This document shows, in pieces, positions 19,247 through 40,941 of a stretch of 64,000 bases of DNA. The position numbers were made by a program, and so were the translations under genes. The notes below the pieces were generated by a model that saw only the letters and a list, made by a program, of their open reading frames with translations, did no database searches and was not told the DNA's origin. Positions within the stretch are counted from its first letter, which is position 1. The number at the start of each line of letters is the position of its first letter. Source of the DNA: Sphingomonas sp. LC-1 (lineage in GTDB: Bacteria > Pseudomonadota > Alphaproteobacteria > Sphingomonadales > Sphingomonadaceae); assembly GCF_025371035.1 (NCBI RefSeq), contig NZ_JANZXB010000005.1:186001-250000 (forward strand). The letters run 5' to 3'.

Positions 19247-20297
19247 GCCGACGCGCCACGGCAGGCCGGGCTTTGGGGCGCTGTTCGCCGCATTGCCGGT
19301 TGCGGTCGTGGTCGTCGATCCGGAGGATCGGATCGCCCACGCGAACGGTCTGGCGGAACAGTTGCTCAACCTGTCCGAGCGCCTGATGGTCGGACAGCCG
19401 CTGGCTGCGATCCTGCCGCCGCCGGATGCACCGCGCAGCCGCGACGGGCATGGGTTCGCCGTCTACGACACGGTCATCGCCACCCCACGAGGCCCCAAGA
19501 TCCGCGTGGATTTCGTCGAGGCCCAGATTCCCGATCATCCGGGCTGGCGCGCGATCACGCTGCACAGCGCAGGCCCGTCGCGCCGTCTGGCCCATTCCTC
19601 GGAGCGCTCGGCCGGTGCAAGGGCGGCGGTGGGTGCGGCCGCGATGCTGGCGCATGAGATCAAGAACCCCTTGTCGGGGATCAGAGGCGCGGCACAATTG
19701 TTGAATGGCGGTGAGTTGACCACGCTGATCACGACCGAGGTTGATCGGATCGCCGCCTTGATCGATCGCATGCAGGATTTCAGCGATACCAGACCCTTGC
19801 CGCTCGCATCGGAGAATATCTATCCGCTGCTGACCCATGCGCGAAGCGTCGCGCTGGCGGGTTTCGCAAGGGGTATCCAGATCGAGGAGCGGTTCGATCC
19901 CTCTCTGCCGCCCGCGCGGATCAATCGCGACGCTCTGTTACAGATCGTCATCAACCTGCTGAAAAACGCCCGCGAAGCGGTGCGTGCAGTTCGCAATCCT
20001 CGGATCATCCTCACCACCGCCTATCGGCATGGCATGTCGGTCAGCATCGGCGACGGACAGGAGCGCCTGCCATTGCCGATCGAGATTTGTGTGATCGACA
20101 ATGGACCAGGCGCTCCACCCGACATCGCCGACCATTTGTTCGACCCCTTTGTGTCTGGCCGGCATGAAGGGCAGGGCCTGGGCCTCGCGCTCGTCGACAA
20201 GCTGGTTCGCGACATGAGCGGAATGGTTCAATATGCAAGAGAGGGTTCTCCCGAAATGACGGTCCTGCGCCTTTTGCTTCCCAGGGCCGTCCTATGA
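19230..20297 (+). CDS. ntrB: Nitrogen-regulation sensor histidine kinase NtrB
   Basis: The 355-residue cytoplasmic kinase phosphorylates or dephosphorylates NtrC according to PII status. A PAS domain (residues ~10-110, [19 protein letters not shown]) precedes the H-box [19 protein letters not shown], then the N-box LLKNAREA, the G1 region IDNGPGAPP and the G2 region [12 protein letters not shown]. No membrane segment is visible. The start appears to be a TTG inside the dusB end, as no other start lies close to the PAS domain. The stop overlaps ntrC. Confidence 0.93.
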
Positions 20298-24050: not shown

Positions 24051-25427
24051 ATGGCTTTGGACATTCTCGTCGTCGATGACGAACTCGATATCCGCGAACT
24101 CGTCGCGGGCGTGCTGGAGGATGAGGGCTATGACGCCCGCGTCGCGGCGGACAGCGATTCCGCGCTGGAGGCGGTGGCGGTTCGCCGTCCGTCTCTCGTG
24201 CTGCTCGACGTTTGGCTGCAAGGCTCCAAGCTGGACGGCCTCGAACTGCTGGACGAGATCAAGCGTCGCGATCCCTCGATCCCCGTTCTGGTGATTTCGG
24301 GCCATGGCAATCTGGACACGGCCGTGGCCGCGATCCGCAAGGGCGCTGCGGACTTTATCGAAAAGCCGTTTGAGGCCGAACGCCTGCTGCTGATGGTGGG
24401 TCGCGCGACCGAGACGGAGCGGTTGCGGCGGGAGAACGCCTCGCTGCGGGCCAGCGCTGGACGCGAGACCGATCTGACTGGTTCGTCCAGCGCCATCAAT
24501 GGCATCCGCGCTACCCTGAAGCGGGTGGCCGCCACCGGCAGCCGCGTGCTGATCATGGGGGCGGCCGGGGTCGGCAAAGAGGTAGCGGCGCGGCTTCTGC
24601 ATGGCTGGAGCAATCGATCCAGTGCGCCGTTCGTCGTCGTCAGCGCGGCGCGGATGACGCCCGAACGCGTTGACGAGGAATTGTTCGGGGTGGAGGAGGG
24701 GGGGGACCTCGTCCGAACCGGACTGCTCGAACAAGCGCATGGCGGCACGCTGTTCCTCGACGAGATCGCCGACATGCCGATCGCGACCCAGGCCCGCATC
24801 CTGCGCGTGCTGACCGACCAGAGCTTCACCCGTGTCGGGGGAACGCGCGTCGTCAAGGTCGATGTCCGCGTCGTCTCGGCCACGGCACGCGACCTGACTC
24901 AGGAGATCGCCGAGGGGCGGTTCCGCGAGGACCTCTACTATCGCCTCAACGTCGTGCCCGTCACCATCCCTTCGCTCTCCGAGCGGCGCGAGGATATCCC
25001 GCCGCTCGTCGAGCACTTCATGGCGCACTACGCCACCGAACGTCGCGTCCGCACGCCCGAAATCGCACCTGACGCGATGGTGGCGATGCAGTCCTATGAT
25101 TGGCCGGGCAATGTCCGTCAGCTACGTAACGTCGTCGAGCGTACCATTATCCTGGCGCCAGGGGACCGGGTTGGCCGGATCGACCTCGACCTTCTGCCCG
25201 CCGAGGTACTGGGCGAGGGGGCCGACATGGGGGGTGGGGGCGCCACCGCGATCATGGGGGCGCCGTTGCGCGAGGCGCGGGAGAGTTGGGAACGCGAATA
25301 TCTGCGCGTCCAGATCCGCCGCTTTTCGGGCAACATTTCCCGTACGGCGAGCTTCATCGGTATGGAGCGCTCGGCGCTCCATCGCAAGTTGAAGCTGCTG
25401 GGGATCAGCGAGACGCGCGACGAATGA
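24051..25427 (+). CDS. ntrX: Response regulator NtrX, AAA+ type lacking GAFTGA
   Basis: The 458-residue NtrC-like regulator has a receiver Asp in [15 protein letters not shown], a AAA+ Walker A GAAGVGKE and Walker [14 protein letters not shown], and a C-terminal HTH ([24 protein letters not shown]). Where NtrC has GAFTGA, this protein has a short [12 protein letters not shown], so direct sigma-54 activation is unlikely. That is a known trait of alphaproteobacterial NtrX, which can act with sigma-70 promoters. It starts six bases after ntrY. A GC hairpin lies downstream, before hfq. Confidence 0.95.
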
Positions 25428-25569: not shown

Positions 25570-26061
25570 ATGGCCGACAAGACGGGTTCGCTCCAGGACC
25601 TCTTTCTCAACGCGCTGCGCCGTTCCAAGGCGCCCGTTACCATGTTCCTCGTCAAGGGTGTGAAGCTCCAGGGCATCGTAACCTGGTTCGACAACTTCTC
25701 CGTGCTGCTACGCCGGGATGGGCAGTCGCAGCTGATCTACAAGCACGCCATTTCCACCATCATGCCGTCCGGTCCTCTGGATGTCGCCGCGATCGTAGAC
25801 GGCGTCAACGAACAGCAGCGCAAGAACCCACTTTTGCAGGAAATCTTCCTGAACGCGGTGCGGAAGTCGGAAGACCCCGTCACCATGTTCCTGATCAATG
25901 GCGTGATGTTGCAGGGGCAGATTGCGGGTTTTGACCTGTTCTGCATGCTGCTCCAGCGTGAAGGTATGGCGCAACTCGTCTACAAACATGCCGTTTCGAC
26001 CATTCAGCCGGCACGTCCGCTGAACCTGGCCGAAGAGCAGGCAGGATCGGCCGAGGATTGA
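25570..26061 (+). CDS. hfq: Tandem two-domain Hfq RNA chaperone
   Basis: The 163-residue protein holds two complete Hfq/Sm domains, whereas ordinary Hfq is 70-100 residues with one. Domain 1 (about residues 7-70) keeps [26 protein letters not shown] and YKHAISTI. Domain 2 (about 86-151) keeps [11 protein letters not shown] and YKHAVSTI but has Met for distal-face Lys31 and Leu for Gln41 (E. coli numbering). A ~15-residue Asp/Gln-rich linker joins them. Three chains would give the six Sm folds of a ring. The ATG giving [10 protein letters not shown] is chosen because AAGG lies ten bases upstream and the preceding codons form structured leader. It overlaps hflX by four bases. Confidence 0.95.
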
Positions 26062-27350
26062 GCACCGGTTTCGATCGCGATCGCGGTGAATTCACGCGTG
26101 GCGCCCGCACCGTCATCGTCCTGCCGGATCAGGGCGACGCGGCGCGGGACGCCGATGCACGCCTCGATGAGACGGCGGGGCTCGCCATGGCGATCGGTCT
26201 GGATGTGGTGGAGCGTATCGCGCTACGCGTCCGCGCGCCTAAGCCCGCGACCCTGATCGGTAGCGGCCAAGTCGAACAGGTCGCGCAACAGGTGCGGATG
26301 GAAGAGGCACAGCTTGTCGTTTTCGACGGCGCGCTCACCCCCGTACAGCAGCGCAATCTGGAGACCGCGCTTGAGGCCAAGGTCATCGACCGGACCGGTT
26401 TGATCTTGGAAATTTTTGGCGAGCGTGCGGCGACGGCGGAGGGGCGGCTCCAGGTCGAACTGGCGCATCTGGACTATCAGGCGGGCCGTCTGGTTCGCAG
26501 TTGGACCCACTTGGAGCGTCAGCGGGGTGGCTTCGGTTTCCTGGGCGGTCCTGGCGAAACGCAGATCGAAGCCGACCGTCGGATGATCCGCGACCGCATG
26601 GCGCGGTTACGGCGCGAACTCGATCAGGTAAGCCGGACGCGCGGCCTTCACCGTGACCGACGGCAACGCGCGCCATGGCCAGTGATTGCGCTGGTAGGCT
26701 ACACAAATGCCGGAAAATCGACGCTGTTCAATCGCCTGACGGGCGCTGACGTCATGGCGAAGGATCTACTGTTCGCAACTCTGGATCCCACATTGCGACA
26801 GATCAGCCTGCCGGGGATCGATAAGGCGATCCTGTCCGACACGGTCGGTTTCGTATCCGACCTGCCGACCCAGCTCGTCGCCGCGTTCAAGGCGACGCTG
26901 GAAGAGGTCGTATCCGCTGACCTGCTGATCCATGTCCGCGACATCGCACATCCGGATAGCGAGGCGCAGCGGGCGGATGTCGAAGCGGTGCTGACCGAAA
27001 TCGGCGTCGATCCCGAAACGCCGCGTTTTGAGGCCTGGAACAAGATCGACCTTGTTGAAGGCGATCTCCGCGACGATCTGCTCGTCGAGGCAGAGCGCCG
27101 TTCAAATATTGTCGCGGTTTCGGCCATGACGGGGGAGGGCATCGACGATCTGGTCGAGCAGGTGGCGGCGGCCCTGACTTCCGGGCATCGTCGTTACCGC
27201 GTCACGCTGGATGCGGGCGATGGGGCCGGGGCCGCCTGGCTACATGCGCACGGCGAGGTACTGGATCAGACGATCGAAGGCGAGCAGGCGGTTTATGATG
27301 TCCGCCTCTCGCCGCCTGATTATGACCGGTTCAGCCGTCGCGGCGCTTGA
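26058..27350 (+). CDS. hflX: Ribosome-associated GTPase HflX
   Basis: The 430-residue GTPase splits stalled or heat-damaged ribosomes in other bacteria. An N-terminal HflX domain ([30 protein letters not shown]) and the Gly-rich segment [16 protein letters not shown] precede the G domain: G1 [10 protein letters not shown]3 [11 protein letters not shown]4 NKID. Start is a TTG overlapping the hfq stop (TTGA), in line with hfq-hflX coupling seen widely in proteobacteria. The 3' end overlaps the convergent mazG by 20 bases. Confidence 0.95.
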
Positions 27351-40865: not shown

Positions 40866-40941
40866 GCCGGTTTAGCACAGTTGGTAGTGCACCTGATTTG
40901 TAATCAGGGGGTCGGGGGTTCGAGCCCCTCAACCGGCACCA
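40866..40941 (+). tRNA. tRNA-Thr (anticodon UGU)
   Basis: A 76-base cloverleaf: acceptor GCCGGTT pairs with AACCGGC, discriminator A, CCA encoded. The anticodon stem is CCTGA/TCAGG with loop TTTGTAA, giving anticodon TGT. The T arm GGGGG TTCGAGC CCCTC is canonical. It lies alone between two protein genes, with no integrase or duplicated 3' end nearby. Confidence 0.95.

Follow-up and report, generated by a model that had tools for sequence, protein, structure and literature searches.

Hfq chains carrying two Sm-like domains were described in Zymomonas mobilis and in six other species of Sphingomonadales in 2010 (PMC2877685), and the same two-domain chain is represented by the models NF010691 and PRK14091 (Z. 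mobilis ZMO0347). The accessible portion of that paper links the Z. mobilis protein to inhibitor tolerance, mentions the yeast Sm/Lsm heteroheptamers, raises a ring of three chains as a question and calls for structural work; half-specific residues and a pairing of tail and rim are absent from that portion. The accessible part of PMC9797736, on the same Z. mobilis protein, does not discuss the two domains, and no report on the divergence of the two halves was found in the open-licence literature, as judged from titles and the first lines of abstracts. The fusion itself, which the original prediction had mentioned for sphingomonads, is already known; a fixed reciprocal specialisation of its halves appears to be unreported.

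Ordinary single Hfqs have one domain per chain and one tail per protomer. According to the accessible text of PMC6561178, the acidic tip of the C. crescentus tail packs on the rim residues R18/K19/K21 of the adjacent protomer, contacting R18 and K19 directly and not K21, and is proposed to act as a brake on annealing. For the distal face, the part of PMC6422490 available to us describes an A pocket made of Q33, Q52 and L32, and an R pocket spanning two neighbours (Y25 with L26', I30' and L32'), with residue 31 contacting the RNA phosphate via its backbone amide. In E. coli, as reported in the available part of PMC12262471, the K31A mutation is mild for regulation, yet RNA chimeras go down almost four-fold, and R16A nearly abolishes RNA-RNA chimeras with regulation partly kept.

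The window analysed here is a stretch of 64,000 nucleotides from a 4.15 Mb Sphingomonas genome. The frame at 25570-26061 (+) translates into 163 residues without internal stop. PF17209 (Hfq) matched the product in two stretches, for a total of 192.6 bits against a cut-off of 27, and NF010691, the NCBIfam model of fused Hfq, matched with 285.5 bits against a cut-off of 270, covering model positions 16-173 of 176 and both domains, in agreement with the two Hfq domains in one 163-residue chain that had been predicted. No difference from the fused Hfq of Sphingomonadales (NF010691) was found in the gene itself. The two domains are the sole Hfq matches of the genome in the PF17209 search. The closest named relative found, in a search that may skip records very close to the window's genome, was that of Sphingomonas yabuuchiae (99% identity over 163 residues). 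In the following, domain 1 (half 1) is called half A and domain 2 (half 2) half B. The locus is organised as follows:

24051..25427, + strand: response regulator, ntrX type, upstream of hfq
25570..26061, + strand: hfq, two-domain (fused) form, 163 aa (ORF, PF17209 and NF010691 matches)
25591..25776, + strand: Hfq (Sm) domain 1, half A (PF17209, 104 bits)
25768..25836, + strand: inter-core linker, following position 64 of half A and ending ahead of position 8 of half B (E. coli numbering)
25834..26022, + strand: Hfq (Sm) domain 2, half B (PF17209, 91.9 bits)
26011..26058, + strand: free acidic C-terminal tail (net charge -13 to -2 in 127/127 fused rows)
26058..27350, + strand: hflX, with a TTG start overlapping the hfq stop, directly 3' of hfq

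The hflX frame starting at 26058 and overlapping the hfq stop codon places the gene in the standard hfq-hflX position, as originally proposed. In 193/193 loci, the hfq frame is followed immediately, or overlapped, by a relative of hflX in the same orientation (174 within the gap limits and 19 outside them owing to overlapping stop-to-stop frames; among the 193, L001 and L002 are the same gene and L113 is E. coli). At window positions 26058-26061 the letters TTGA combine the hflX start TTG with the hfq stop, an overlap that suggests translational coupling of the two genes. The frame at 24051..25427 is presumably of ntrX type, judging from its make-up and place, and a relative of this response regulator lies on the same strand in 141/143 fused loci, as compared by strand. 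Rfam retrieved nothing reaching the gathering scores between window positions 20000 and 32000; a single tRNA-Thr (anticodon TGT) at 40866-40941 is the only Rfam match above gathering score in the window.

To define the distribution of the fusion, Hfq matches were counted in 296 genomes of the order Sphingomonadales, 290 of which had at least one. Within the window's family, 202 of the 213 genomes sampled carry two Hfq matches and 11, from 7 genera, carry one; of the 202, 62 were read, and each of these has its two domains in a single frame. The remainder of the order contributed 83 genomes, 77 with an Hfq match, 76 of these with one. In another family of the order, a second, partial match (G001:C82:5520-5633, model positions 1-38, frame of 51 aa) occurs on a different contig in a genome that also has an ordinary single hfq, and is perhaps a contig-end fragment or contamination. 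The fused-Hfq cut-off was passed by 5 of 385 genomes drawn from the class, with the next best score at 147 bits, and by 6 of 200 drawn from the phylum, all of them in the window's family; the phylum search was run at an E limit of 1e-40, and its listed rows all belong to the same class, with 165 genomes unlisted, so that its reach beyond the class is uncertain, and a very diverged fusion could escape both searches. With this reservation, no wider or independent fusion was found outside the window's family in the class (385) or phylum (200) samples, and every fused Hfq sampled comes from that single family. A sequencing or assembly error or a frameshift is ruled out, the two domains being in one frame in 62/62 loci found by Pfam and 80/80 found by peptide pattern, two sets that share two genomes.

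A quick HflX tree of 92 rows set the 60 fused rows on one side of a branch (SH-aLRT 93), requiring one change; ten single-domain rows from the same family fell outside the fused group. In a more careful tree of 76 rows, from which 16 were left out (12 of a fast-evolving genus of the window's family, here termed g12, three long and one short), the long-branched fused row L164 fell outside and the other 46 fused rows grouped together (100/94). None of 200 bootstrap trees set all fused rows on one side of a branch; constraining all 47 together was not rejected (p-AU 0.395). The placement of L164 is taken as a probable long-branch error, because positions 28 and 31 of L164_A and L164_B have their usual residues. 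When the domains of 24 fused proteins were placed in one tree, the A halves formed a clade of their own (100/95), as did the B halves (100/99), on stems of 0.13 for half A versus 0.7 for half B, and a sister relation of A and B was neither shown nor rejected (AU p 0.216). A single origin of the fusion is well supported by these trees, and it most likely arose once; the trees are best explained by a single duplication after which half B changed faster than half A. Gene conversion between the halves was not seen, A and B forming separate clades with an A-B DNA identity of 0.55-0.77.

The halves were aligned, with residues numbered according to E. coli Hfq (NC_000913), for 127 fused rows outside g12 (125 distinct sequences; two genomes occur twice), 15 rows from g12 and 48 single Hfqs, 10 from the window's family and 38 from other families; L019 and L002 were left out as duplicates of L114 and L001. 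The 127 rows comprise 80 named loci retrieved with peptide motifs of the window protein (one motif, AGFDLFCM, includes L41 of half B and is a source of bias at this position) and 47 loci, the window's own included, found by Pfam-domain searches and chosen to cover genera. In the latter, L41 is present in 42/47 and the combination K28/K31 with N28/M31 in 47/47.

The RNA-binding pockets are kept in both halves. Residues 8, 25, 26, 30, 32, 33, 52, 55, 56, 57, 60 and 61 are invariant over 127 A halves, 127 B halves and 48 singles, a set that comprises the A/R-pocket residues 25, 26, 30, 32, 33, 52 and 61, identical in both halves in 127/127. Residue 42 is conserved with a single exception, Y42 in one half B, and Q8, F/Y42, Y55, K56 and H57, which we take to form the proximal U pocket, are present in both halves of the window protein and in 127/127 rows. 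Residues 53, 55, 60, 61 and 64, on strands presumably involved in ring contact, are identical across all A halves, B halves and singles outside g12. Pocket residues are common to the fused protein and the sampled single Hfqs, including F for Y25 and V for I30. Half A also matched PDB 6gwk at 2.9e-30, an ordinary alphaproteobacterial Hfq that, as the fused protein, has an acidic tail; presumably this entry is the C. crescentus structure described in PMC6561178. Because all the A- and R-pocket residues are kept, six A-R sites should remain on a ring.

The two halves differ at the following positions:

25618..25629, + strand: basic rim of half A (R16, R17, S18, K19), +3 at 16/17/19 in 127/127
25654..25656, + strand: half A, distal position 28, K in 127/127
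25663..25665, + strand: half A, distal position 31, K in 127/127
25861..25872, + strand: weakened rim of half B (R16, K17, S18, E19), +3 at 16/17/19 in 2/127
25906..25908, + strand: M at distal position 31 of half B, M in 127/127
25936..25938, + strand: L at proximal position 41 of half B (L 121/127, Q 3, P 3)

The residues first read in the window protein, namely K31, F42, K56 and H57 in domain 1 and M31 and L41 with F42, K56 and H57 kept in domain 2, are all present, position 41 of domain 1 being N, and the survey across Sphingomonadales proposed with them found the fusion widespread in the family and the halves diverged in a fixed way. At position 28, single Hfqs have N (48/48), half A has K and half B has N (127/127 each); at position 31, K is found in 48/48 singles and 127/127 A halves and M in 127/127 B halves. 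Position 41 is N in 46/48 singles and 127/127 A halves. W38 is present in 48/48 singles and 127/127 A halves and in 0/127 B halves, and position 63 is M in 48/48 singles and in 125/127 A halves, and Q in 127/127 B halves. The distal charge at 28 plus 31 sums to 2 per chain in 127/127, the same as in two ordinary protomers, because M31 in half B is offset by the K28 gained in half A. As read from the alignment, the total of distal lysines is unchanged and they are located on alternate domains.

The rim charge at 16/17/19 is +3 in 48/48 singles and 127/127 A halves, and ranges from -2 to +2 in 125/127 B halves, the window protein having R/K/E. The basic rim expected on every protomer is found on half A of the window protein, not on its half B. 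Basic rims of Hfq vary between bacteria. The result for half B speaks against an ordinary rim, not against membership of the Hfq family. Half B keeps R16 in 98/127, R47 in 127/127 and an aromatic residue at 39 in 126/127, so the basic character of its rim is reduced rather than abolished. All tails that follow half B are acidic, within the range given above; those of single Hfqs have a net charge of -10 to -1 (49 rows, one duplicate). The near-neutral linker, which overlaps the edges of both Pfam matches and occupies the place of an ordinary acidic tail, has a median of 22 aa and a net charge from -3 to +4, median 0, in 127 rows. The asymmetry as first read stood for residues 31 and 41 and overlooked K28 of half 1 and the weakened rim of half 2; on the alignment, the larger difference between the halves is that of rim and tail. 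An independent start of translation for half B was considered and rejected: a scan of the linker for ATG and GTG found none that is conserved, and 56/127 rows contain neither codon in frame.

Mean identity between half A and half B is 0.60. In 27 loci from Sphingomonas and near relatives, dN/dS was 0.022 for half A and 0.111 for half B (345 and 349 of 351 pairs used, respectively), indicating purifying selection on both halves, weaker on B. On the HflX tree, residue 19 of half B changed between acidic and not acidic 16 times, versus one change between basic and not basic for residue 19 of half A.

In the reading we favour, to which we assign a rough probability of 0.57, three chains would form an alternating ring in which the charges are divided between the halves, the B tails lie on A rims and three regulated annealing sites result. 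The protein, the only Hfq of the cell, derives from an in-frame tandem duplication, most likely a single and ancient one within the family, and three chains would most likely close into the usual six-domain ring with A and B alternating. Sequence comparison shows the duplication, the fixed residues of each half, the retention of the pockets and the purifying selection on both halves, whereas the ring of three chains, the docking of tails on rims and the number of annealing sites are inferred. Distal A/R pockets would be offered by all six domains, and proximal U pockets as well, except at position 41. The two distal lysines, at 28 and 31, would be on half A together with the complete basic rim that drives RNA annealing; half B would mainly complete the ring, bear pockets and carry the free acidic tail, each B tail docking on the basic rim of the adjoining A. 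In this way the six lysines on the distal face of an ordinary ring would be redistributed as two per A and none on B, again six in sum, and regulated annealing sites would number three per ring instead of six. Tentatively, at somewhat less than even odds, we further propose that annealing is halved and paired, three basic rims being gated by three acidic tails and RNA still being held in six pockets per face.

The C. crescentus rim residues R18/K19/K21 align with E. coli positions 16/17/19. In an alternating ring, the free tails would meet only fully basic rims, because both neighbours of each A are B in either direction, and the half-B rims, which would face the linker instead of a tail, are those without most of their charge. 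The main argument for an (AB)3 arrangement is that tails and rims would no longer match if A6 and B6 rings formed separately. On these grounds it is plausible that three chains make up a ring whose alternating sites are non-equivalent. Such a ring would resemble the eukaryotic Sm/Lsm rings, which are likewise built from non-equivalent Sm folds; the latter consist of seven separate chains, whereas the fused Hfq has two domain types per chain and presumably six positions. In contrast, ordinary single Hfqs show N28/K31 and a +3 rim in 48/48 sampled. Covariation contributed little: the top pairs between the halves (A14-B14, A65-B65 and A44-B44) ranked below two within-B pairs, and no more than six independent pairs were left when the HflX tree was taken into account, too few to separate ring types. 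Given the E. coli outcomes of R16A and K31A, any functional effect would most likely be at the rim, its size being uncertain.

Fixed half-specific differences can also be held by neutral ratchets. The same alternating ring might work as an ordinary Hfq, its asymmetry being neutral and kept by a ratchet as proposed for other duplicated ring subunits, an alternative that we consider unlikely, if still the strongest competitor. All six domains keep their pockets and the distal lysine total is unchanged, as such neutrality would have it, and the mild effect of K31A and the partial function of R16A in E. coli (PMC12262471, in the text available) point the same way. Hfq-dependent regulation of the usual kind by the sRNA SuhB in Sphingopyxis granuli (PMC6563040, accessible part) would add to this if Hfq is fused there. 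However, half A is tightly held (dN/dS 0.022), the rim of B drifts and that of A does not (16 versus 1 changes at residue 19), and the near loss of chimeras in R16A, in the available account of PMC12262471, implies that fewer rim patches should be felt.

Alternatively, six chains might build two six-membered rings, one of A halves and the other of B halves, stacked on each other and serving different tasks. The linker, at about 22 residues, might be long enough for this, residues 53, 55, 60, 61 and 64 are kept by both halves, and the difference between A and B is strong (mean identity 0.60). But stacking would put the acidic tails on a mostly non-basic B ring and leave the basic A ring without a free tail, with 12 distal lysines on the A ring and none on the B ring, and we regard it as improbable. 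Last, confinement of A-rich RNA to three distal sites, the consequence that the original prediction drew from two diverged Hfq domains, agrees with M31 fixed in half B, K31 fixed in half A and the almost four-fold drop in chimera counts of E. coli K31A (PMC12262471, accessible part), but is very improbable. Of that interpretation, the two diverged domains are retained and a ring of three chains with alternating sites stays plausible, but the confinement to three sites is not supported: the A/R-pocket residues are the same in both halves in 127/127, residue 31 contacts RNA by its backbone amide (PMC6422490, available part) and M31 is offset by the K28 gained in half A.

Compared with this picture, the genus g12, for which 15 genomes of about 2.1-2.9 Mb were read (L168, L173 and L175-L187), shows unusually fast evolution in both halves of its fused Hfq. 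Six of the 15 keep the acidic tail together with W38 and the +3 rim in half A. The other nine, which form one clade in the quick HflX tree, have 1 to 5 residues past the last core position, i.e. have lost the acidic tail; half A reads G38 and R31 in all nine, and six of them lack a basic residue 19. K28 of half A is present in 15/15 and M31 of half B in 8/15; the net distal charge reaches 3 in two chains of 15, and Q33 is retained by five of the 15 B halves. This pattern agrees with a coupling of tail and rim, and other losses accompany it; since the losses of the tail, W38 and residue 19 share one clade, they may represent a single event. Relaxed or altered sRNA regulation in g12 is conceivable and worth a look.

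In an ordinary Hfq a point mutation strikes all six sites, which makes it hard to ask how many are needed for sRNA-mRNA pairing. In the fused protein, evolution seems to have produced and retained a ring in which one type of domain can be mutated without its neighbours, which offers experiments a clean handle on Hfq. If the alternating three-chain ring is true, the roles of rim, distal charge and tail could be probed at three of the six sites while the remaining three stay intact, and the family would possess a natural separation-of-function Hfq, in which the amount of RNA held would be uncoupled from the number of annealing sites.
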